Positions 2,143-53,705 of a stretch of 64,000 nt of DNA are shown one piece after another. Both the position numbers and the translations under genes were made by a program. This DNA is from Dactylellina haptotyla (lineage: Eukaryota > Ascomycota > Orbiliomycetes > Orbiliales > Orbiliaceae): NCBI GenBank assembly GCA_031310005.1, contig CM062379.1:4154001-4218000 (forward strand), in the 5' to 3' direction. A model generated the notes under the pieces. That model ran no database searches, had not been told where the DNA came from, and was given only the letters and a program-made list of their open reading frames with translations. Numbering within the stretch: position 1 is the first letter of the stretch; every line of letters starts with the position of its first letter.

Positions 2143-5100
2143 ATGGCCGACTCGAACTCAGGGCGGCCCAAAGAGCCCGTCACGAACCGCGACACAGGCT
2201 CCGCCTACGATTCCGCGACGTTTAAGAGTAGTATGACGATAAGAGTGGAACAGAATGTCGGCGCCATGTGAGTGAACCTTTCATGATCGCTCACAAGCTG
2301 TATCCGCTAGCGTATGCTAACCCCAACCTGGAATAAAGGTCTATCAGCCCGAGCGGAAGGGATGTTGTACTTGCATCGTAGGTGCTATTTACATTGCCAC
2401 CGCAAGTTGCCATACTAACATCAATTAACAGCCGCGACGGCTTGCATATAATTGACCTCGATAACCCATATAACCCACCACGGTTTCTTAGACACCTATC
2501 TTCTTGGGAAGTTGCAGATGTGCAGTGGTCTCCTTTCGCTATACGCGATTATTGGGTAGTTAGCACATCAAACCAGAAAGCACTGGTTTGGAATCTCAAT
2601 CGGCCATCGGCCAATGCTGTCGAAACTGTATTACACGGTCACTCCAGAGCAATCACGGATATCAATTTTTCAGCCCACAACCCAGACCACCTCGCAACAT
2701 GTGCTGTAGACTCTTTTGTCCACATATGGGACATGAAAGCTTCCAGGCGGCCGGTGCTAACTTTCAGCGACTGGTTTGCCGGTGCCACTCAAGTCAAGTA
2801 CAATAGGCAGGATGAGAACATCATTGCGTCTTCTCATGATAAGCTTCTGCATATTTGGGACAAGCGAAAGGGTGCCTTCCCTCTGCAAACCATCCAAGCG
2901 CACGACACTAAAATATACGGCATCGATTGGAATCGAACACGTAAAACGGGAATTGTAACATGCTCACTCGACAGGGCTGTTAAGTTTTGGGATTATGCAA
3001 ACGATTCAGAACAACCAGAGCGTATTCTTCGCACCAATTACCCGGTTTGGCGCGCTCGCCATACCCCGTTCGGGTGGGGTATCATGGCTATGCCTCAACG
3101 GGGCGAGAATGACCTTTTCCTATATGATCGGCGTGCCACTGGCGATGCATACACCGAACCTGTCACAAAATTTTCGTATCATAGTGCTCCAGTCAAGGAG
3201 TTTTTATGGAGATCTAGGGGTGGTTCCAACCCGGAAAGGGATGACCGAGAGTTCCAGCTTGTAACCTGGAGCAAAGATCGCGACATCCGACTTTGGGAAA
3301 TCCCTCCACGCCTCATGAAGGGCATCGGCCACGACCCCGATACGAAATTACGCTTTCGATTAACCCGATTAGGCGCACGATATAAGACTTTCCGCCGCGA
3401 GCCTCCGGCAAAATCAAATGACCAACATCACCTACATTCACGGATTGGTGCATTGGCGGATGGAGGACAACGGATCGTACCTACCATTCCGTTAAGGTTA
3501 AATGCACCAAGTCATCGACCAACAACATCGAGCTCGAAACTTGCACCTTCATCTCGACAGCATGGCTGGAATAGTAAGGGTTTCATGTCAGGGCAGAAAA
3601 GTAATCTCAAGTCAACAACAATTCACCGAGACATGAATCCTATCCAATGGATGAAAGGCGTGAAAATGCAGCATCGGGGTGATGGCGTATTTGGCTTGGG
3701 AGGGTTCTCTGATGATGAAGTCAAAGAAACCGAGGGAATTGACGCTTTCACTCTAAGCATGAAGCCCAACTTTAAATTTGGCTGGACGGGTCCGGAGAGC
3801 TTGTCTGATGAGATTACACTGGTTGGCTTGCGTTTCTCGAAGATCAAATTTGAAAGAGTCAATATAAATAATAGAACCTGCCTTTTGTCATTCTCGGGAC
3901 CATGGGGCCCTTTATCTCAGAATGTTTTTCTCAGATGTTCAATTCAATTCCCACCGAATTATCCCAATGTGGGCGCTACTCCGGTTTTCCAGATTGACAA
4001 GACTACCAAGATGTTAGACGAAAAGCTCGATGAGATATATAGTCAACTCAAGAAGATTGCCGACAGCTATTTGAGCCACCAAAAATTCTGCTTAGAAGCT
4101 TGTTTGAGTTTTCTTTTGGGTGAACGAGCAGAAGATGCTATGTACTGGGAAACCAAACGTGGGCCCGGTGTCCCAGAAGACGAAAGTAGTAGCGATGAGG
4201 ATATGGGGAGTGCTCTGACCCGAGGTCCTGAAAACGGTCCTGCTGGGCTCAAACAGCTGGTTCGGAAAAATAATAAAGGCAATGTACCTTTAGCTAAAGC
4301 TTGCGGGGCAATGTGGAGCGAAACGGGTAACAGGCATAATCCCTTCAGAATATATCTTCAGTATATTCTAATCTTTTCCTCTAGGCAAACTTGTCTGCTT
4401 CTTCCCCCCAAAAGAGGAACATACACAAAAGTCCCTTATCTCAATTCTAAACTTTTCAGAAAGGCTACGAGATCCTTACTCTGAGAGATCATCGAAACAT
4501 AGGTTTGAGTCTTTTGGGCGACTACAGGCATCTACTCTCCGTACTGCTAACTCCGTACCGCCCACTGGTATCGATGAGTCCACCGAGGACGCAGAACAAT
4601 CAGCATCTAGTGACCTGGAGAGCTCTTCTATCTCCGATGATATGCTCCACTCCGTCGCTCGATGGGCAAAGAGCCATGATGCAAGTACTGGAGGCCCGCG
4701 GGCCCGTAATGAATCAACTGACAAATCTACACAAGCTGGGAATGAACCACGGTCCGCTCAAAGATCCGGCGGAACGAGCCAACTTAAAAATTCAAATAAC
4801 AAATTCGATTTTACGTTCGCGCCCTCTATCGGGTCTCGAAAACGCCAGCGGAATTATCTCACAGTTCATGATTACTCCCATCTCCTCCCAAGCAGCAGAG
4901 ATCTAGCAGAGGACTATGCTATATACGGCATGGGTACAGAGGTTTGCAAACACAATGCTTCCGTTGCCGCCGCTTGGAGCCACTGGGATATCCGCGATTC
5001 GTGGAGACTCGCCGAATTGATATTATGCAAAGAAATACCACTTGAACTGTCTGCCGATCCGCCTGGAAAAGATCACATGCTCGTTGTTTCACCACAATGG

Positions 5101-21915: not shown

Positions 21916-23232
21916 CTAACTTGAGGCATTGGTTGACTTAGAACTAGAAGCAGCGTTGCCACAACCTTTGACTAATACATGTCGCTATAAAAAGCAAAAT
22001 ATTAGTATCAAGTGAAAAGTCAAATTTGGGAAAGGTGCTCTTACCTTTAACGCGTCTTTTCGACTGAAGCTTTTATCACAATTAGGGCACGGGAAGGGTT
22101 TTACAGCCAGGTGTATCCTTTTATGTCTTTTTAAGTCGTGGTTGCGATTAAAGCTTTGGGGACACTGATCACATCGAAAAGGCCGTTCTTGATGGGGAAC
22201 TGCAGGATGCTGCGAGGGGTGCATATGAGGATGCTGGAGGCCTGACCCTGTCAGATGAGGCGCCAGTCCATTCATTATAGATGCGCCATGTTGCGCATAC
22301 ACACCAGCAGGTATTCCCGCAGAAAGATATCTTGGATGAGTAGGTTGATAACCACTATGTGCTAGCGGGCTTGACGCATGGAGTGGGTGTAAGTGCGATA
22401 ATGAACTAGAGACCGGAGGCCGAGTGACAGAAGGTGACGCTGGACCAACCGGGATTTGATTCCCATGGTAAGAGTATGGTGGGCTATGCTGCGTATAATA
22501 ACCTGATGAGGGCGTAGGGGGTGGGAGTGACGATGGAGGCGATGAGTAAGCATCGTGTGGAGAACCCAGGGTATTCGTCGGAACAGGGGTCATTGGGGAT
22601 TGAGTATGATAATGATACCCGGGTGAGTATGAGTGGCCATGGGGTGTTGGAACTGTAAGGGACGAACTGTAGGATGTACCATCGAAATTTGGTTGAGGGC
22701 CGGTCGATGATTGAATTGCTTCTTGATGGTGAGGGCTCAGCGGTTGGTTTCTTCCGGGGGCGCTAACAGGAGAAACGATACCACGGGTGGCATATCCTGG
22801 TGACTGAGCAGTTGAATAGGCTGTTTGAGATGGTGCAGTCGAAGCATAGGGAAAATTCGCTGGAGTCGCTGTAGTATGCGGGGGATTGGCATTCGCCCAA
22901 AAGCTCTGTCCAACCGCATTGCTACTATCAACAGATCCCATGTGATCGCTTCCAGAAGGGGGGGTCAACAAGCTCGGTGCGGGACTATGGAGTCCATATC
23001 CAAATGAGCGTTGGTTCGGAGAGGGGAATGTGAAGGCAGGTAGCGATACATTTTGTCTTCTGGATGCTAATATTGAACTTGCTGCATTATGATTTGCAGT
23101 GTCGCTGCCTGGTTTAGGTAGCTCCGCATCATTCGCGGGTGGCGAAGGGAGCGTATGAAGTGTCGATATCGAGTTTATAAGGGGTGGCGACGTATACGAC
23201 GATGCTGCCGCCAACGGTAACGTCGATGCCAT
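21916..23232 (-). CDS. C2H2/C2HC zinc-finger transcription factor
   Basis: Two exons (23232-22045 and 21984-21916, phase 0) encode 418 residues. Residues 1-345 are a long Ser/Pro/Tyr/His-rich disordered region (for example SPPLINSISTLHTLPSPP, STAPSQTAYSTAQSPGY, LSHLHPLHASSPLAH), probably the activation segment. Two tandem fingers follow. Finger 1 is classic C2H2 (RPFRCDQCPQSFNRNHDLKR, then HKRIH). Finger 2 is PFPCPNCDKSFSRKDALK|R-HVLVKGC; here the last ligand is Cys, so it is a C2HC finger. The intron falls inside finger 2, directly before RHVLVKGCG. The two-finger module near the C-terminus followed by a short Ser-rich tail is a known fungal arrangement, but I cannot name the orthologue. In-frame sequence upstream of the ATG has no other Met, which supports this start. 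Confidence 0.88.
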
Positions 23233-24984
23233 TTCTGTAGTAGTAGTGGTGGTGGTGGCCGGAGAGTGCGCAGTTTGACAAGCCCAGTAGGACGATGCTG
23301 AGGAATTTGAAGAGAAATCCGGCGAGTGCGAGATTTTGTCGGAGCTACTAGGGGCTGGACTTGGATAGTAAGAGACCGGTGACGCCGGGACGAGTTGCGG
23401 AAGGATAGGAGTCTGGCGAGTGAAAGTGGGATATGTTATAGTCGCCGTTTTGAAAGATTTTATTGGGATTTAAAGTCCCAATGGCTTATTCTTTTGGGTG
23501 AGGGTACGTCAATAGGAGGGTTTCTTATCGTTGGTTTGATTTACGTATCAAATCCTCAGATTTATTATGTCAAGTCGAGGAGGCGAGACGGGATGTATTT
23601 TTATATATATTTTTTTTCTTTCTCCCTATTGATTAATACGGAAAAAAGGGTTTTAGCTATATGACGCTTGTGTCTTTGATATGCAAGACTGTGGTGCTAA
23701 TGCTATTGTTCTTGGCTTAGAGAGGAGGACTGAGAGGGGGAATAAAGATGGAAAAGAAACCACAATGGTGATAGGAGGAGCAAAGGCGGGAATTATGGTG
23801 ATGGTAAAAAGATGATGAACAGAACTATGATTTGGAGAGGTCGTTAGGACGGAACGATGATCATCACTTCTTTGGGGCGGCGTGGGAGCAAGGCGATGAT
23901 ATATATACTCCCGCCAGAGTGGGTACAAAGATTGGAGATGGTAGAGGTACTATTGAGGAATCGTCCTTAGTGCGGTAATCTAAACTGTTGACTAAAAAAG
24001 ACCAAGGGCAATAGCGAGGGAAGGAAAGGGCGGAAGAAGGGTGGGCATGCTACAAGGTACAGGTACATGCCGGCATATGCCTCTTGGACGCTCGCTATCT
24101 GTTCTTGTCTCGTTTCTGGACCCGGACAGACCTGAGGAAAGCCTACCAGCCCAAGTACAGGTACAGGACGTCCTCTGCTCTGGACATGGACTCCGAACGT
24201 GGAACATGGGCATGTTTCCCGAGATTTGGGTCCTGTCGGGAAGCCATCACAACCCTTGTCGGCTAACTTCTGCAGTGCCTGATCAGGAGGGGTAGACAAT
24301 TTGAGAGGCAGAGGAGGCAGAAGAAAGAAGAAAAAATGAAGAAGAAAAGAGAGAGCGAGAGACGAGGCTCGACCTGACAAACAGCCGGAGAAAAAGAACG
24401 AAGAAACCAGCCTGCAGTGGGGCAAAAAAGAAAAGAAGAAAGCAAAGCGACAAAAAGATTGGAACGAGGCCCGTTTTGTCAAAGTGTGTGCAGACCCAAA
24501 AGACTGGTGCACCACCAGGAATCAAATGATACCCATCCATGCACGCATGTACACAATGCATTAGCGCGACAACAGGAGCTGATAGAAAAAAATGAAATAA
24601 AAATGAAATAAAAATTTTTAAATGGAGTAAAATAACAATCCTCCTTTCCTTCTTCCACCCATATTTTTTCTTCTTTTTCTCCCTCTCTTTCCATGCGCCC
24701 TTTGTTTTCTTTTTCAGTTCGGCGTTTTGAACCTGATGCGGGTTTCTACATTGCTAAGCGAGAATAGGTTTAGAGAAACGATCACTTCAACGTATTTTCC
24801 TGAGGCCTAGCTAGTCCGCACGCTTATTTATCCACGTTCTGGTACATATTGACACAGAATTGTCAAAAGCTATCTAGTTCTCGTATCTCCTGATACTTAA
24901 AACTGAATTTTGAGCACGAAAACATAAAGCACCCCGGAATTTTTTGTATATATATTTTTAAAAAAAAAATTTAAAAAATAAAAA

Positions 24985-37214: not shown

Positions 37215-40200
37215 TCAAGCCTGTTTGCGGAATCCTGCCCAACCTAAGCCCGAATCGCTAATAGTAAGTGGCGAGGTAATATCTGTATCATTTGTTTTTA
37301 CTGTCCCGAAAGAGCTGTCAACACAGCTACTACTAGCGTCCGTTACACTCCCGGATGGGGCGGTATCTAGCTGTTTGGGGATTTCGTCGGTTTTCCATTT
37401 GGACAACTCTCCTTTGTAAGGTATATAGACTTCTACAGCCTTTGTCTTTGATTTTATGTGCTCAAATAGATAGTCCATGCGAGTGAAATAGGCGGTATCT
37501 GTTCGGTAGTTATACGCAATTATCTGCCCCACGACTTTGCCAAAATCGTCAAAAATCCAAGTTCCCGAGTCACCTTTGACACCCAATCCACCGTTATAAC
37601 GTGGTGTAAAGAACCATTCTTCAGAGTCCATGCCATCGAGTCTGAAAAAAGCTGTCTCGCTCGATACAATACCATCCATGATGCCACTGTAAGATCCAAC
37701 GCCGTGGATTCGTCGCAAGGGGTCGATTTCAGAAAGATCGACGGAGTGCTCTTGCTCAAATGTTTCGGATAGGAAGCTGAAAAAACTCTTTTCGACAGGA
37801 TACGGGGCTTTAGGACTCCCATCGTAGTGAAGATCGTAGAAGTTTTCTACACCTGAGACAATGTTATCCTCAAGTCTCCAGGGAGGGATTTCACCGATAA
37901 GGGCCCAATCCATCTGTAATTTCGGAATTAGTAAAAGATCAACGACAGAAGATGCTATTTAGAAAATACCAACCTGATGACGATTCGCATCAAACCCATA
38001 TCCCGATGAGTAAGCTACATGGCCAAAATCGATTGCCTGTTGATCTAAACCGTCCAACATTGCTAGCTTGGCTCGCACGGCTCTACCATCGTCAACATCG
38101 CAATACCGTTTCTCGCGATCACAGTAGTACCGCTGCATGTCCAAACTATCTTTGGCCTCCTCTAAATCCATTCTAGCCGGTTGCTGGATTGGAAAATTGC
38201 GAACACCTGCCGAGTTTACAAGCCAGCCTTCATCAACGCCAATGCCTAGCTCTGTATCTTCAGTCTTTTCTTCAATTACATGATGTGATATCAGTCCATA
38301 AGGGGTCTCAGTCCCGTCCTGTTTTACGAGAACAACGACGCCTCCAAAAGTGCCAGCTGATATGGAATTATCATCATCTCTTACAGTTCCAATCGTTGCA
38401 CCGCACGAAGGTCGGTTGAGATATTTCCCAAATATTGGTGGAGGGCGAAACGCCTTATCAGGCTTGGGGCCGAGTTCGACTCGCGTTTCAGCGAATTGCA
38501 ATGAGCCTTCGGGCGACAAGCGCGGGCCAGAAACATCTGGATGTGTGTAAGGTGGCTCTTTTGTATTGGCATCCGTGTTTTCCAAACAGATATCACCCTC
38601 GCTCGGGCCATCCCTAATGGCCCCGATATTTTGATCCTCAGATGAAGATTCTGCTCCGCTTTGCGAGGACCTTGCTAACAAGCCAACTTTCACATGCATG
38701 GGGAACAAGTCGCTCACAACCTCCGCAAATGTGTCAAGAACAAGTTCCTTGGGGTCCGAGCATGTGATACAGATAGTAGGTTTGTTTCGAACTCGAAGCA
38801 GCTCTATTGCACCATGTTTGTTCTTCCCCATGACTGTGCTAAAGTTACGACGCAGCCAGGGAAGGATGTCTTTTCGCCAAGCGGCGATATTATCAGTTGC
38901 AGGGGAAATAGTAGTATACTTCCTTGTGGCTGTAGGTCTGTCGTCCAGGTACTGTCTTCTCCTTGGCCGTGTTCCTTCTGCTAGCTTGGCGCTTTTTAAT
39001 GGTAGTGAGGTCAAAACTGATTGCGACGAAATGTGACCATAGGCAGAGCTATCCGCTCTCAAACTGGAACCCCCTCTTTTAAAAATTGTTGATCTTTCTA
39101 ATGCTCTGATAGAGTCGGGTTGAGAACTAAGAACGACTCTAGCTTCTCGATAATTGAGCCACCGGCGATGCCACGACTGGTGTTTTGGCCATCGATCTTT
39201 CTCCCTTTCGACTTCAACTTCAAAATATGAATGCCAATCCGCTAGCCCGTTCTCGTCAGGTTCTTCGGCAGGGGCGGGTTCAATCGCCCTCAGGATCCTG
39301 CCGACTATCCCCGCCTTCTGCCAGCACTCCCGTAAGGCCGATGCTTCCATGTTCTGATCGTTGTATTCCAAAAAGCCAGATGGAAGATGATACAAAATCC
39401 CACTCGACTCATCCTTACTTCGAAGCACTAACACCTGATGCTTATCGGGTGAGAGCACAACCGCACCTGTAACATATCGTGAACCATCACTATTATAACG
39501 ATATAATGGGTTCTTATTATCTCGCGGCTCATATTTGGGCTTTAATTTCGGATCCAATTGGGTAGATTGAGAGGGGGGCTGGTTGGGAGAATTTGCTACT
39601 AATGGTGTCTCCGGTTTCTGTGCTGGCGTATTCGAGGGGACCTCGGAAGATGTAGCTGCTTTCGCCAACCCGCTAAGTGATGCGTTTTCGGACCATCCCG
39701 TTCCACCAGAGGGTGATCTTTGTAGAATTATAGCCGAGTAGCGAGGTAAAGTTTCTTGGAATGGAGCATCCTCGCTTCTCCGTTGTTCTAGGGCAGTGGG
39801 TAAACTCGATGCTTCTACCAAGGTAATAACCGAAGCATCGGTGTTGGCAGGCGAATCTACTTCTCGGATAATTTCTTTTCCCTTTCTGGAGCTTTGGTGT
39901 CGGAGCGGATGGGGCTTTAGCGTTGACATCTTGTCTTGCGAGATATTCAGAAGAGCGCAACGGTAGGGGTCGTAGGGAAAGCCTGTTTCACCAATATCTT
40001 CATTCCATGAAGGAACAGAGGCAATAAAGGCTAGCCGAGGTCTTCTCCCAGCAGTGTAGAGGTTGGAGTGGAGGTCTCTCATATGTGAGTCGGCATCTTC
40101 AAGTTGGTGGAAAGCACGGTTGCAGGTCAAAGAGCTACATATACGAATACCATGACTTCCGTATTCATGGGAAGAAAGCGCGGGCACACTATCAAAATTT

Positions 40201-41815
40201 GCCTGGCAATCAGTGAATGAGCATTGCTTAGCAGTAGACCGGAGATTGCAGCTCATGGCATGCTTCCTAATAAATTTTCATGTTAGTGGCTAGCTAGACT
40301 GTATATGAGCTAAGTACTCAAAGTCGTACCTCCAATCTTGCTCAAGAGCGAAGGATTCTGAGCAGTCTACATTATTGCACTGAAGAAACTCTGGGGAGGG
40401 CGATTTTGGTGGATTGTGTATTTCAAAACTGGATGTGTTTACTGAAGAATCAATAACTATTTGGTTGAGGGCTGGTAGCCAGCATGGATTTTTGGTGTTA
40501 GTGAGTAAGACCAGCTCAGAATATATATTGGGTTTTCAGGGCTAGCGAACCATCAGTGAGAACACCGCGTTGCCCATCGTGTTCTTGATCCTCGTGGTAT
40601 AATAGCTCTTGTTGAGTCTCAAATCCTTCCTTGACAAATTTGCACCCTGAAACTTGGCACTTGAATGGGCGATATTCTACATTAGTAGAACCCGTATAAC
40701 GTTGGATTACACCGGCCTTTTCCGTGTCAGTGGAAGAGTATGATCGGTCTCCAAGAGTTGCTTTCTCATCCGATCGAAAAGGTGATGGTCGTTTACGCCG
40801 TGGATTAGTACCGCCCCGCCTTTGGGATCCAAATGGCCGGAATGTCGTATCTTGCGAAGGTGTTGAAAATGTGGATGATGAGTTCCCAATGATGCCATGA
40901 ATATCTTCTTGGTGATGTTTAATGTCTTCATTTTGAGTTGATTCGAAAGTGCAGCCAGAAACTGGACAAGAGTGAACTTCGAATCCCAATGAATGTACTT
41001 TCTCGTGTAGTGATTGGGCATTAAGAGTCTCGAAGCCCTTTTTATAATAATGGCAGCTAGGAACCAGGCATTTGTAAGGACGATGATCTCCACTAGAATG
41101 GGTAGTGCCATGGTGTCTGTCTCGCTCGCTTTCAGTAGTGAATCCCCTTTTGGTGTAGACACATCCTGTATCCTTGTCGCATTTCCATGGTCTGTAGTCC
41201 CACGTATGATTCCACCAGTGTCGCCTACAATATTAGTACTGAGGGTGTTACTAGAAGTAGCAGAGGCGGGTGGACTCACATTAAACTTTGTGGAGTAGGG
41301 AATGATTCACCACAAATGTGACCTGTGATGGTATCTTGATAATCACACATCTGAGTTCTTTGGGTCTCGTTGCTTAAGATCCCAGCATCTGGATAATCAC
41401 CAGAAATGTTGTCTTCGCCGAGAGACGCAAGAGAAGCCAACCTTGTCTTTGATTCTTCATAATTTTCGGTCGCGCCGGCGAGTATTACTTTCAATGTGTT
41501 TCCCTCAAAAGATGTTTTGTTCATACCCTGGAACGCAGCCGATGCATCGTCATCGTAAATGTAAGTGCAGATACCAACCCTGCATTCGGAGGACACCAGG
41601 ACACCGACACTTTCCAGTTGGCCAAAAACCTCAAACCGTTTCCTTAGTTTCGCCTCATCAACTATTAGTGGGAGATTTTCGATGAATAACTTCGTCCGGC
41701 CTGTTGCTGGAGAGTCTGTGCGCGGTCTCGAGTAGGGATTTGTTGAAGCATGGTGGAGCCCGTGGTTCCGGCTACCATCTCCGTTACGTGGAGGATTTGG
41801 ATACCGTTGTGCCAT
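37215..41815 (-). CDS. Fusion protein: RRM, C2H2 fingers, degenerate Nudix domain, trypsin-like protease domain
   Basis: Five exons: 41815-41280, 41224 to about 40551, 40471-40330, 40266-37974 and 37913-37215, giving about 1447 residues. Domain order: RRM (about 43-112; RTKLFIENLPLIVDEAKLRK, VGICTYIYDDDASAAF); seven or eight C2H2-like fingers (about 155-525; YKCLVPSCHYYKKGF, HSCPVSGC, FKCQVSGC, LQCNNVDC, KQCSFTDC, RICSSLTC); a Nudix-like domain (about 715-830; TGAVVLSPDKHQVLVLRS, LPSGFLEYN, ALRECWQKAG); and a serine-protease-like domain (about 1090-1447). In the Nudix box the two catalytic Glu after RE are replaced by Gln-Lys. In the protease domain, candidate triad residues are all present: SHHV His near 1112, DWALI Asp1217, and KGDSGTW Ser1331. 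The donor of intron 2 is ambiguous (40551 or 40566, both in phase). The function is unknown; I do not recognise a characterised orthologue. Confidence 0.8.
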
Positions 41816-43017: not shown

Positions 43018-44775
43018 TCAATCAGTGTCCTGAGGTTTGCGATGCCCGTCACGGTAATGGCTGCTTTTCTCCTTGGCCTTTTCTATTGCTGCTTTCCACC
43101 CTTCTCCACCTTCGCGAAGGATAACTTGCTGGACCAGTTCCTCCAGTATATGCTTCTCACGTGTTATGGATTTAGTTTCCTGGCCAATTATTGCCAAATT
43201 CCGAGTGCTGGGGATTCGCAGCCACTCTTTTGAGACTGCAAACCCCATTTCAATACACAACTCTTCAATATAATCAATGAGGGATTGGTACGTGCTACGC
43301 TTGGATTCCTTGCGTTCCTTGGCGATGTGACTGAGATGCTGCCTCTGCAAATCGGCGCGAAAACGCCTACCAGCGAGGTTGAAAGAGCAACATGGCAATA
43401 TTATAAATGGGGACCGACTCAGGCTGGCTAGTAGCGGAGTCCAGGCGGTCAATTCGTCACCATGGTTGCAAATGAGAAAGGAGCCTTCCGGAAAGGAGCC
43501 TGAATGATAAACTTGTGTGCTGCCTAGGACCGTATAAAATGGACTCAGGAAACTCGAAGAAGCTTGCTCAACAGAATGTCTTTGGTTGGGCATAGTATTC
43601 TGAACGGGAAGGGGTTTTTTGGTTTGATGCTGATCTCCGCCAATAAGATAAGGCATCAGGATGGATTCAACCAGATATGATTGCGTGTTTTTATCAAAAG
43701 ATCTCCAAACTTTGCGCCTACGAGCATCAAATCCATAGCCCAGCCAGCCTTCTTGCAGCAGCACATCTGTAAGTACGCCTGACCCACAACCAAGATCGAC
43801 GAACCCGACAAAACTGTCACCAAGTTTATGGGAGCCCTCAGTTCCCGGTAGGGGAATCTGGTTAGGGTTTCTAGGTCCATACATATCCTCCCACAAGCAG
43901 ATGCAAAAACTTGCGATGCCCAGCTCTTCGAAAATTTTATCTACCTCACGACAGCCTTTCCCTTCATAACCATTGGATGCAAATATTTGGCACAGCCGAT
44001 CCGCGTGCTTTGCCTTGATATTTTGGTACATATTTTGGTATTTTTCTCTTGAGACGATAGTGTCATGATGTACACGCTTGATGTAATGAGGTGATTCGAA
44101 TCTTTTCTTCAGAAGCTCAAGAATTTTTTTCAACATGCGTTGAGTCCTCCCGCAATCAATCTCATTGACAGATTGATCAGTAGTTCCGCTAGGGGATTGG
44201 AAACTGGGTTTCGATTGATGGTCGGTCATAATTAAGCGGTGGATAGACAGGATCGAGGCAGAAGCCTCAATGGCTATGGCCCTCGTATTCGGAAAATAAA
44301 AGGGCCAGTTTGCTGATGTATCGAGTATATGAGGCACTATAACTATTATAATTTCGTCGCTGTCATTGCGCTGGAGCCTTTGGAAAACCCAGATGCTCTC
44401 GTCCACAGCATTGTCTTTCTTTGAGTTCCGAGGAATTATTCTCACTAAAAGCCGCCTTGACACTCTGAACCCAGAGAAATCTCCAATAAATCCGAGATCG
44501 TTGTTAGAATAGTCAACTTCCGCCTCTGATGAGTCGATGATGATATCGGCACGGGCTACAACTGGAGATAGGTATTCAGGCTGCAGAAGGACTTTTATGA
44601 CAACGGACTCCTGCTGGTTCTGTGAAAGCGCCGGTACATCTGTCGAATAAGCCTTTTCCCAACCAATGGAAGTTTCACCGTATCTCCTTTGTTGGTCTCT
44701 AGTATTATCGCCAGAGGGGAATAGAGTGTCCGAAGGTTGGAAAATTGTGGAAAGATCGAGGATAGTAGAATTCAT
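43018..44775 (-). CDS. TRM44: tRNA (uracil-2'-O-)-methyltransferase TRM44
   Basis: TRM44 2'-O-methylates U44 in the variable loop of tRNA-Ser in the cytoplasm. It is a single-exon gene of 585 residues. The SAM-binding motif is FVGFVDLGCGSGVLTDVLL (about 322-340), followed by the characteristic GYGFDARRRKVW (about 347-358), which identifies the TRM44 family. Further conserved segments are HVNDT-like KRVHHDTIVSREKYQ before the fold, GSFLICNHGDELTAWTPLLA, PFIILPCCSFNLAGRRF, and the C-terminal block with GFAVSKEWLRIPSTRN. Length is normal for fungal TRM44. The neighbouring ketopantoate-reductase-like gene is divergent. With TYW3 this is the second tRNA-modifying enzyme in the window; that is coincidental as far as can be seen. 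Confidence 0.93.
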   Translation of the reverse strand: MNSTILDLSTIFQPSDTLFPSGDNTRDQQRRYGETSIGWEKAYSTDVPALSQNQQESVVIKVLLQPEYLSPVVARADIIIDSSEAEVDYSNNDLGFIGDFSGFRVSRRLLVRIIPRNSKKDNAVDESIWVFQRLQRNDSDEIIIVIVPHILDTSANWPFYFPNTRAIAIEASASILSIHRLIMTDHQSKPSFQSPSGTTDQSVNEIDCGRTQRMLKKILELLKKRFESPHYIKRVHHDTIVSREKYQNMYQNIKAKHADRLCQIFASNGYEGKGCREVDKIFEELGIASFCICLWEDMYGPRNPNQIPLPGTEGSHKLGDSFVGFVDLGCGSGVLTDVLLQEGWLGYGFDARRRKVWRSFDKNTQSYLVESILMPYLIGGDQHQTKKPLPVQNTMPNQRHSVEQASSSFLSPFYTVLGSTQVYHSGSFPEGSFLICNHGDELTAWTPLLASLSRSPFIILPCCSFNLAGRRFRADLQRQHLSHIAKERKESKRSTYQSLIDYIEELCIEMGFAVSKEWLRIPSTRNLAIIGQETKSITREKHILEELVQQVILREGGEGWKAAIEKAKEKSSHYRDGHRKPQDTD

Positions 44776-45690
44776 AGTGATACTGGGGATTTAACGCTTA
44801 GCGATTTAGTTTGGGATGTTCAAATTAGATATACGTGGTAAGGCAAATATTGCAAATCAGGAGAGTGGCGACTTCGAATTCTGCTGCGCCCCCACATGAG
44901 AACAACGTAATAAGTGGGTGGCCACGGTGGTGCGTAGCTTCACGAACTTGAACGAACAGATGGATGGGAATTGTTTGGGTGGTCTCGACTCACAGCGACG
45001 GCGACAAAGGAGGGCGCGGAACTGAGAAAGACCAAATAATGGTGCCTACTCTAGTGGGTTCCGACAGGAAGGCGTTTCTTCTGAATATATATTTTTCAGG
45101 TGAACGGTGGACTGCTGCGATGAATTGCACCGCACGAGGCTGTCATTTGGTTGTGCTCTTCGTTTGTATCTATAAACAACACATTGCATCAATAGCTTAA
45201 ATTAATGAAATTAAACGCGCAATGTACCGCCAAGCCTGTTGCCAGTACTTAAGTATCTACTAGCTTCTTGCATCTAGAACAATGCTAGGTCTTCCCTCCC
45301 AGTCTTCTTCTCTTTGTCAACATCGCGCAAACCGTCGCGCAAACCAGAAACGAGCACGCTCAAACAAACCTTGAGGTATATGCCACAGTTACCATTATAT
45401 GCCGATGGCCCTTTTCCTTTAATATATCGGAAGAATCCATCCAAGGATGTAGACGGCACCTACCAATCTTCTTCTGCTTTACCGACGATTCAACCCTTCC
45501 AACGTTGAGCCGCATGACGATTGATTCATCCTTTTTGACGAAATTCACCAAGAACAAAAGATAAATATTTGTTGCAGACCTCTCCTCTTGGATTTGCAAT
45601 CCGCTCGGATCACAATAATCACAACAATCCCGAGTATTTATAGTAACAGCAGTAATAGTAGTAATAGTAGTTCTCTTCAGCAAGACCACC
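44776..45690. promoter_or_regulatory. Divergent promoter region, TRM44 / PanE-like gene
   Basis: About 0.9 kb between two divergent ATGs. Short frames here lack conservation features. TAG/TAA triplet repeats occur near 45645-45670, just upstream of the PanE-like start. Confidence 0.45.
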
Positions 45691-50826: not shown

Positions 50827-53705
50827 TTAGAGCGACATAGTCAACCATTCCCACTCGTGTGTCGAACCGGTCGAAGAGAGGGTCGAGATCACATTTGTTT
50901 GCGGGGGGGCAGAAGGTGATCCCTGTAGGCCGAGACTAGCCTGTTGGTTGGGAATATGGCCCATTTGATCAGATCTGATAATTTTCCCATCTCTTTCTGT
51001 AATAGACAGATGTAATCCTTCAGCCAGGGTGGAATTTTCCGCATCACCTCGGACAGCAGATGACCGTCTTTGCCGTTTTGAAGAAACTATGGCTGGAACC
51101 CGTCCCAACGATGCTTCAGAAGTCGAAGAACTAGAACCACTTGCCTTTGGCGCTATCAAGGGGGTGCTGCGGCTGCCGATACCGCCCTGGAGCGACGAAG
51201 AACCACATATTCCGGATGCGAGATTACTACTATTATCGTTTCCAGGAGGCGGACTATTCTCCTCCAAGAGAATACCGCTATTGCCTACAGCGGCGGTGTT
51301 TTTCCCTGGTTGCGAAGGAGGTTTCCGAACTGTTTTCTTAGTTCGAGACGCTGTCGTACCCGCAGGTAAAGAGGATCCACTACCGCGATTTCGTTTCTTA
51401 ATGACGTCAGTTTTCAAAGAGAGGGGTCTTACAACTCCGTGAAGCTTTAGAAATAAACCACAGGCATTGCAAAGAGGATGGCCCTCCGGATTTCGCCGCC
51501 AAAGTGGGGTTGTTTGGGTGAAGCAGTTCGTGCAGGTTGTTGGCAGGCCATTTTGGCCAATATTATGGCCACCTGGCCGAGCTGTATCAGGAGACTGGGG
51601 CCTTGAGGGGTTCGCGGAATTGAACCCTGATTCCGGGGGGCTACTAGGGTTTGATAGCGTCCGGGAATTACTGGGACCGTGATATACTGAGCCTCCTGAA
51701 ATTGGAGGCATCGCTCTGCCAACCTTCGAGCGCCTTTGACTATCATGTCCCGTGCTGATTTTCTGTTCTCCCGAAGCTGATAATCTAGCTAGACCCTTGC
51801 TAAATGATGACCACTCAGCGTTATCCGCAGTGGTTTCGGTGCTGACACCCAGATTTCTAGTCGTGGCATTGCTTGGGAACTTAGCTCTGGAGACCTCAAT
51901 AGTATTGGCGCTAAATTGTTTTTCGGTTTGGGCCATTGGGTCTTTCAGCCAATTCGAGAGGTTTGGCGTATCATCTGGCAAGGATGCATCCAGCCTTGGA
52001 GTCGCATCCATGTTGGTGTAATCCTTAAGTTCGGACATAGAGAAAGCTTCTTTTCCGTCTTCTTCAATATCGGATTCACTGCCCAGATTAAATAATCCAT
52101 CGGACTTCATGGAGGATATGTTTTTTTGGGATGAGTGGTCCTTCTGTTGGATAATATGAGAGGGGTTGACGTGCTGGTAAGCGAAATTTGGTGTTATATT
52201 TGTGAACCCTTCCTGGTGCTGAACAGATGGGGTTCCTTGATAGAAATTGTCGTTGTTTCCAAATATAAACCCAGTTTGTGGTAAACTGCTAGTAAGAGTA
52301 TGATGGCGAGCATGGTGGTTAAAGTGTGGGATGTTACGGGCTTGTGAGCGACCTTCCATCGACGATTGACCGAAGAATACCTCACTGTTTTCAGGAATAG
52401 GATGAGGAGTGGACGATGCAGAATGAGGCGTAGAAGCCGGCGGGGAATAAAAATCCTGCGATGCAATTGAGGAGGCTAACGAAGCACCGTTGTAGATAGT
52501 TGAGAAGCCACCACTCGTAGCTAATGGTGATTCAATAGGCGAAAAGTTAAAATTTGGTTGAAAAGGTCCAGCCGAATGCATAATCGGATCAGTATTCTCC
52601 ACTGCAACCAAGGTATTTAAACCGTAAGGTAGCGTGCTAAGTTGTGAGTTTCGAAGGCTATACGATTGTGAATGGTTTGTGTTTGAATTAATGAATACAT
52701 CAGAAGCATCCAAGCTATAGTCGACTAGCTCTTGGTCCTGGTCAGGGTCGTGAGGAATCGAAATACTTTGTAACGCAGGAACACGGGGCGAAAAGTTCGC
52801 AGGCCGCTTTTTTCCCTACTCATGCTATGTTAAGAAACGGTCTTTAGGCAATATCAATTCGTGTAGGTACATACTTGGCTTCCAACATCTAGGCTGGTTT
52901 TACGCCGGTGCCGCTGGATATACTCAAACTCGGAACTACCGACCTGTCGCGGCCGACCTGGGGCGGAAGCCAGGGATGTCGAAGACCTAAATGAGTTCAG
53001 AAGAAAATCCTGTCGCTGGGTTTTGATTGGTATAGCTGGTGTAGATGTTTTCGAAGGTTGAGCGGCGGACACTGATGTAACGATATCCATCGCGATGGGT
53101 GAATTTTCACTTGATAGGTTTTCGATCATAGGGTCATCTATAAACATCGACTCTCCATGGTCCTGATCAAGTGGGTTTTCTTCGGCTGGAACAAGAGTAT
53201 GCACAGTTGCAGACCTACTCGGCTTTGAACTATAAGAGTCAGAACCAAAAAAATATACAATTAGTGGAGGTTCGTGATAAGTCTTCGTCCCGGGCCTATA
53301 TTTGCTCAGCGCTATATCGGATCGTGCCGAAGAATATTCGAAATTGAGATTTTCATTTTTTATGAGGTTCTGGGAGGGAAATTTAGGAGGTGGGAATATT
53401 ACTTACCCGATCTGTCGCTGTTCCCTCTTCAGGGTCATCGACATCATCCTCCAAGTAAGATTTTCCATTCGTTCCTGATTGGGGAGACCAACTTTCGTTC
53501 TGCTATAAAGTTTCCATATCTGTGTTGCAAGAGGATCCTGCTTCTGCATATCGGCCAGTTCACCCAATGATGCTGGGGGGGCAGCCCGCCTAAAACTGGG
53601 TAAGAAGGCATCATTGAGCAACTTCGACCTGAAGGCCGAGTCTCCTTCCGTTTTGAGATCCAGGTTGAGCAACTGCCCTCTGGAGAGGGATCCCACCTCC
53701 TTTGT
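50827..53705 (-). CDS. areA: AreA/NIT2, GATA-type nitrogen regulator (first exon not resolved)
   Basis: AreA is the global activator of genes for use of secondary nitrogen sources. Three coding exons are certain: 53705-53407, 53229-52875 and 52815-50827, giving 880 residues in continuous phase. Diagnostic segments in order are [28 protein letters not shown] with [42 protein letters not shown]; and YSLDASDVF. The single GATA finger is [20 protein letters not shown] then [20 protein letters not shown]. The last residues EWEWLTMSL are the conserved C-terminus that binds the NmrA corepressor. The exon at 53705 begins after an ATTAG acceptor and its frame has no upstream Met, so at least one more 5' exon exists. 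An ATG-CTG before a GTATTC donor near 53915-53925 would fit the phase, but is only a guess. The 5' end lies next to the A+T-rich block. Confidence 0.95.

Follow-up and report, generated by a model that had tools for sequence, protein, structure and literature searches.

Stp1 and Stp2 are C2H2 factors. The protease that activates them, Ssy5, cleaves itself into a prodomain and a catalytic part and acts on both once released, and the portion of the report used here places its self-cleavage site at A381/A382 and names residue H465 (PMC12958826). SltB is described as having a pseudokinase prodomain (PMC4557415, PMC11011638), which is freed by self-cleavage, after which SltA is cut down from a size of 78 kDa to one of 32 kDa (PMC11011638); the cutting of this zinc-finger factor requires SltB (PMC4557415, PMC11011638). 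Ssy5-Stp1 and SltB-SltA are relays of two proteins, a signalling protease and the zinc-finger factor that it activates, and the combination of a pseudo-enzyme prodomain with a protease is, from the SltB and Ssy5 reports, a described design. A simple lineage story is countered, because the homology of SltB to Ssy5 is called unproven and no fungal genes resembling the C-terminal part of SltB alone were found, according to the sections of PMC4557415 used here. As far as these reports describe them, Ssy5 and SltB, with their C2H2 factors activated by cleavage, are the closest described parallels to the protein presented below.

In the window, by which we mean the whole stretch of 64,000 nucleotides that was analysed, we found one predicted gene that joins an RRM, C2H2 fingers, a Nudix fold and a protease. 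This order had been proposed in the original prediction and is borne out by Pfam, motif and profile tests; the start and stop also agree with the one-gene model given there, and five exons yield one stop-free frame. The gene model is as follows.

37215..41815, minus strand: the whole coding gene, with the ATG start at 41815 and the TGA stop at 37217-37215
41815-41280, 41224-40551 (or -40566), 40471-40330 (or 40441-40330), 40266-37974 and 37913-37215, minus strand: the five exons
41225-41279, minus strand: intron 1, which interrupts finger 1
40267-40329, minus strand: intron 3, which interrupts finger 6
37914-37973, minus strand: intron 4, which interrupts the protease after the conserved motif SGY..D and before DWAL

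When the five exons are spliced, the frame is kept and internal stops are absent in 4/4 of the intron 2 end combinations tried, and the predicted protein has 1,447, 1,442, 1,437 or 1,432 amino acids depending on the ends chosen. Introns 1, 3 and 4 have GT...AG borders and lengths of 55, 63 and 60 bases, and the spacing from SGY..D to DWAL across intron 4 is about the same in the paralogs described below. The candidate donors of intron 2 (GTTCGC or GTGTTC) fit the consensus poorly and its exact ends are uncertain. Codon preference ranks the used frame best of the strand's three frames in exons 1, 2, 4 and 5; it gives no support to the used frame in exon 3 (142 bases; 0.135 vs 0.162 in another frame), and within exon 4 the used frame is not the top scorer in 2 of 7 segments of 300 bases, which lie over and just after the Nudix part. 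Separate genes in place of one predicted fused gene are unlikely, because fingers 1 and 6 and the protease are each cut by an intron, and because a single open frame of 772 amino acids encodes the last part of finger 6, then fingers 7-8 and the Nudix fold, and also the His of the protease. A division into two genes, one for the RRM and fingers 1-5 that stops at 40516 and another that starts with finger 6, would fit the weak intron 2 donor, the change of frames across that intron and the codon preference of exon 3, but exon 3 holds no in-frame ATG upstream of finger 6, which must therefore depend on an upstream exon, and the first Met of exon 4 falls within finger 6. We consider this division very improbable and rejected it on these two grounds.

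Elsewhere in the window, the upstream gene on the same strand (43018-44790, minus) matches Pfam AdoMet_MTase PF07757 (E=1.4e-23) and resembles a TRM44-type tRNA uridine methyltransferase. Two genes look like transcription factors, one with a GATA finger (50827-52815, minus; E=9.9e-17) and one with a C2H2 pair (21985-23469, minus; zf-H2C2_2 E=3e-12), and a single open frame at 2382-4484, plus, carries WD40 repeats and, after them, a match to RWD (23.3 bits against a cut-off of 22.8).

The N-terminal half of the predicted protein holds the following nucleic-acid-binding modules.

41489..41689, minus strand: RRM, residues 43-109 (Pfam RRM_1 E=1.7e-9)
41206..41347, minus strand: finger 1, of extended C-x10-C type and split by intron 1, with spacing equal to that of the C2H2 protein at C6:3015977
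40579..41181, minus strand: fingers 2-5 (C2H2), by pattern and shuffle tests
40068..40379, minus strand: fingers 6-8, of which finger 6 is C2HC and is split by intron 3

The predicted RRM is thus recovered by its profile, and its RNP2-like LFIENL is present and looks normal. Its RNP1-like segment, VGICTYIY, we take to lack the usual aromatics, judging from a by-eye alignment with the consensus, and given this apparently degenerate RNP1 the RRM may bind RNA weakly. Where seven to eight fingers had been predicted, eight C2H2/C2HC fingers could be placed, with motif counts that exceed those of shuffled sequences: a permissive pattern picks out 7 motifs between residues 151 and 520, where 5,000 shuffles average 0.43 and peak at 5 (0/5,000 reach 7), and a stricter one picks out 4 between residues 1 and 545, where 2,000 shuffles average 0.14 and peak at 3. 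In exons 1-4, no C2H2 model of Pfam passes its cut-off. The C2H2 protein at C6:3015977 in the same genome has a stretch of three fingers that is similar to fingers 1-4, with 28% identity over 134 columns that include 41 gaps (39% in the genome search), and a basic PRRKRP stretch lies near residue 320, between fingers 4 and 5.

The middle of the protein contains a Nudix module (Pfam NUDIX, E=7e-9), whose nearest solved structure by sequence in the PDB is yeast Ddp1 and which has an ordinary counterpart in the same genome at C6:867020 (E=1.0e-18).

39078..39512, minus strand: candidate pseudo-Nudix domain, residues 703-847, derived from a diphosphoinositol polyphosphate phosphohydrolase (Pfam NUDIX, Ddp1)
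39306..39380, minus strand: degenerate Nudix box SGFLEYNDQNMEASALRECWQKAGI, which aligns without gaps to Ddp1 and to the intact paralog on C6

We compared the 14 Ddp1 positions that are named for metal, phosphate or base contacts in the part of PMC8064635 used here. The C6 copy retains 12 of them, differing at S53 and K170, and the window module retains three (R32, S52 and E80). An intact Nudix box, RExxEE, is absent from the window module, which has RECWQK instead, with Q and K at the positions of Ddp1 E83 and E84; the phosphate-binding residues K63, R102, R152 and R171 (Ddp1 numbering) are replaced by S, E, W and Q, and G65 by F. In Ddp1, Mg is held by E80 and E84, mutants of E80 and E83 are inactive or nearly so, and phosphate binding requires R32, K63 and R171, as reported in the same source (PMC8064635). 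Substrate binding is described there as unharmed in E80Q and E83A (PMC8064635), so loss of catalysis alone would leave a sensor possible; it is the missing clamp residues that speak against a pocket of the Ddp1 type. From its residues we therefore interpret the module as a catalytically dead pseudo-enzyme of DIPP origin. Like the Ddp1/DIPP phosphohydrolases, as far as they are described, it aligns across the domain (PDB E=5.2e-18), and unlike them it is devoid of the catalytic glutamates and the phosphate clamp and is built into a large protein. Of the inositol-pyrophosphatase-like Nudix fold proposed for this region, the ancestry holds and the activity does not, and both an active inositol-pyrophosphatase and a ligand sensor of the Ddp1 type are weakened by the comparison. 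A pattern search for relatives of the module in viral contigs gave 14 matches, none of which was confirmed at that pattern's sensitivity.

The C-terminal part is laid out as follows, where 4/4 refers to an alignment of the window protein with three usable paralogs from the same genome.

38670..38918, minus strand: segment preceding the protease (residues 901-983), which aligns weakly at best with the N-terminal parts of the paralogs
38415..38669, minus strand: polar-rich linker, residues 984-1068, directly ahead of the protease
37440..38408, minus strand: chymotrypsin-type (S64-like) protease, residues 1071-1373, split by intron 4
38280..38282, minus strand: putative catalytic His1113 (SHHV), invariant in 4/4
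37908..37910, minus strand: putative catalytic Asp1217 (DWALI), invariant in 4/4
37566..37568, minus strand: putative catalytic Ser1331 (GDSG), invariant in 4/4

The His-Asp-Ser set that had been called plausible is found in order, at conserved family positions, and the motifs HHV, SGY..D, DW.L and GDSG are invariant in all four aligned members, as is His1112. Two Asp (window residues 1210 and 1217), which lie 7-8 apart in SGY..D and DW.L, are both invariant in 4/4. The SltB paper, in the part used here, leaves the catalytic Asp open among Asp1037, 1046 and 1049 (PMC4557415); by analogy, the Asp of DW.L type would be SltB's candidate. The piece that holds the window protease matches no Pfam family at E<=5, and Peptidase_S64 (PF08192) is found neither in that piece at E<=5 nor in the genome search at E<=1, so we call the protease S64-like and do not file it as S64. 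The protease profile has no significant match in the PDB (best E 0.043, marginal), and pattern searches for relatives gave 23 matches in viral contigs and 118 in contigs of bacteria and archaea, of which, within the sensitivity of the patterns, none could be confirmed.

The window protease belongs, judging from profile and motifs, to a fungal family that has three usable paralogs in this genome. A tblastn search with the C-terminal part reached two distant places in the genome (E 7.6e-4 and 0.089), and a genome search with one of these (paralog A) turned up additional loci of the family on contigs C1, C5 and C7 and recovered the window only at E=0.18. An apparently broken copy (L029 4166-6177) and a partial piece with one stop within the match (C5:455131) were left out of the alignment, in which the window protease is 25, 23 and 23% identical to the three paralogs. 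All three match Peptidase_S64 (E 4.2e-5, 3.8e-8 and 1.4e-5), two of them above the cut-off as whole proteins, and when the genome was searched exon by exon, A and C were above the cut-off and B was not. A profile built from the three paralogs only gives the window protein 51.0 bits, whereas 500 shuffles and 337 of 339 window frames score at most 3.2 bits, the sole exceptions being two frames of this gene; the Asp-Ser half contributes 39.8 bits and the His half 8.5 bits, which is weak alone. Residues 901-983 were not recovered by the paralog profile search. By analogy with Ssy5, a self-cleavage site would be expected in the linker at residues 984-1068.

Other members of the family were seen in the genome. 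Neighbouring S64-like protease genes lie at C1:7.3566-7.3607 Mb (L029 2139-6177): the first requires an intron, and the second, present as pieces on the opposite strand, looks broken, with stops within a match. Standalone S64-like proteases of about 460 and 511 amino acids are found at L016 3590-5082 and L017 4685-6232, and in these two no finger or Nudix was detected by Pfam at E<=0.1.

We hypothesise a single latent regulator whose RRM-finger half would be freed by its own S64-like protease acting in cis, a reading that we hold tentatively and that falls somewhat short of probable. The N-terminal half, with the RRM, eight fingers and the basic, nuclear-targeting-like stretch, would be the nucleic-acid-binding payload, the pseudo-Nudix and the linkers would serve as a non-catalytic prodomain or docking platform, and the C-terminal protease would cut in cis, either in the linker ahead of itself or between the fingers and the Nudix. 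The finger half, released in the way that Stp1 is freed by Ssy5 and SltA by SltB, would then act on DNA or RNA. By analogy we infer an active protease, cleavage of its own chain, and a role of the freed half in the regulation of transcription or RNA. One chain unites a finger array of the kind on which such proteases act, a pseudo-enzyme, polar linkers and a protease, and from this domain fusion self-processing would be the most economical reading. In favour of it count the single spliced frame with its introns inside modules, the triad invariant in 4/4, the Peptidase_S64 matches of the paralogs, whose profile finds the window protease, the design described for SltB and Ssy5, and the likeness of fingers 1-4 to the C2H2 protein on C6. 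More doubtful is a one-piece switch in which such a finger/RRM regulator with its cis-acting protease would be gated by a dead inositol-pyrophosphate phosphatase prodomain. Against the latent regulator count the missing Pfam match of the window protease, its 23-25% identity to the paralogs, the E=0.18 of the paralog A search and the apparently degenerate RNP1, and moreover the SltB and Ssy5 pathways, as described, keep the factor and the protease apart as two proteins.

If the protease were inactive, the protein could be a scaffold made from two worn enzymes, in keeping with a Nudix that appears dead and with a window protease that is the lone member of four without a Pfam match; this is rather unlikely, since all four protease motifs are kept in the window copy, unlike the key residues of the Nudix. 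The protease could otherwise be an effector of defence or cell death that works in trans and is activated by nucleic acid on the RRM or the fingers. The fusion of nucleic-acid modules to a protease would suit this, as would the side-by-side related genes at C1:7.357-7.361 Mb, one of them apparently broken, as in quickly changing families, but the Pfam matches of the exons (E<=1) include neither a nucleotide-binding switch nor a cell-death domain, the proteases of this kind control transcription factors in the reports as far as they describe them, and RNP1 appears degenerate, so we regard it as unlikely. The original prediction had likewise raised a defence factor, which is possible, but little points to defence and the closest parallels, Ssy5 and SltB, are signalling proteases. 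Quite unlikely is a pseudo-Nudix that binds a ligand (nucleotide, polyphosphate or inositol phosphate) without cutting it and thereby gates the protease: the behaviour reported for Ddp1 E80Q/E83A, which lose activity and keep substrate binding (PMC8064635), and the retained R32 and S52 are consistent with it, but none of K63, R102, R152 and R171 is kept and F stands in place of G65. The related suggestion of a sensor triggered by nucleic acid or a nucleotide fares no better, as a nucleotide or inositol trigger is weakened by the replacement of the catalytic and phosphate-binding residues of the Nudix, whose clamp is lost, and an RNA trigger is uncertain because RNP1, aligned by eye with the consensus, appears to be without the usual aromatics.

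The latent regulator that we favour can be set beside several known systems. No protein with this module order was found described in one open-access library, judged by titles and abstract openings, in agreement with what had been claimed for it. The plant trypsin-like protease NAL1, of which the maize form (ZmNAL1a) is reported to degrade a transcriptional corepressor (PMC12915138, in part), shares with the window family a weak profile match at HHV and GDSG (E 0.063, 0.3 and 12.6 bits) that is not significant by itself, and unlike the window protein it is not a fusion as described. Ssy5 (Saccharomyces cerevisiae, Peptidase_S64) is likewise a chymotrypsin-like signalling protease with a long prodomain, and its Pfam family is matched by the paralogs; in contrast, no RRM, fingers or Nudix are mentioned for it in the parts of the reports used here, and the window protease itself does not match PF08192. 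SltB (Aspergillus nidulans) resembles the window protein, as far as described, in its length and fungal origin, in the dead enzyme at its N-terminal end, in its C-terminal protease, which has been compared to Ssy5 and given a proposed His, Asp and Ser, and in its functional tie to a C2H2 factor. It differs in that its dead enzyme is a pseudokinase, that fingers, RRM and Nudix are absent from its description and that its target SltA is a separate protein. We do not file the window protein as SltB, since no kinase family is among the Pfam matches of the window exons at E<=1 and SltB was compared by description only. A natural fusion of the two kinds of part that these relays keep separate would point to the targets of orphan fungal proteases of this type and would provide a single-chain system for studies of prodomain control, and the candidate pseudo-Nudix, recruited from inositol-pyrophosphate metabolism, would stand parallel to the pseudokinase of SltB.
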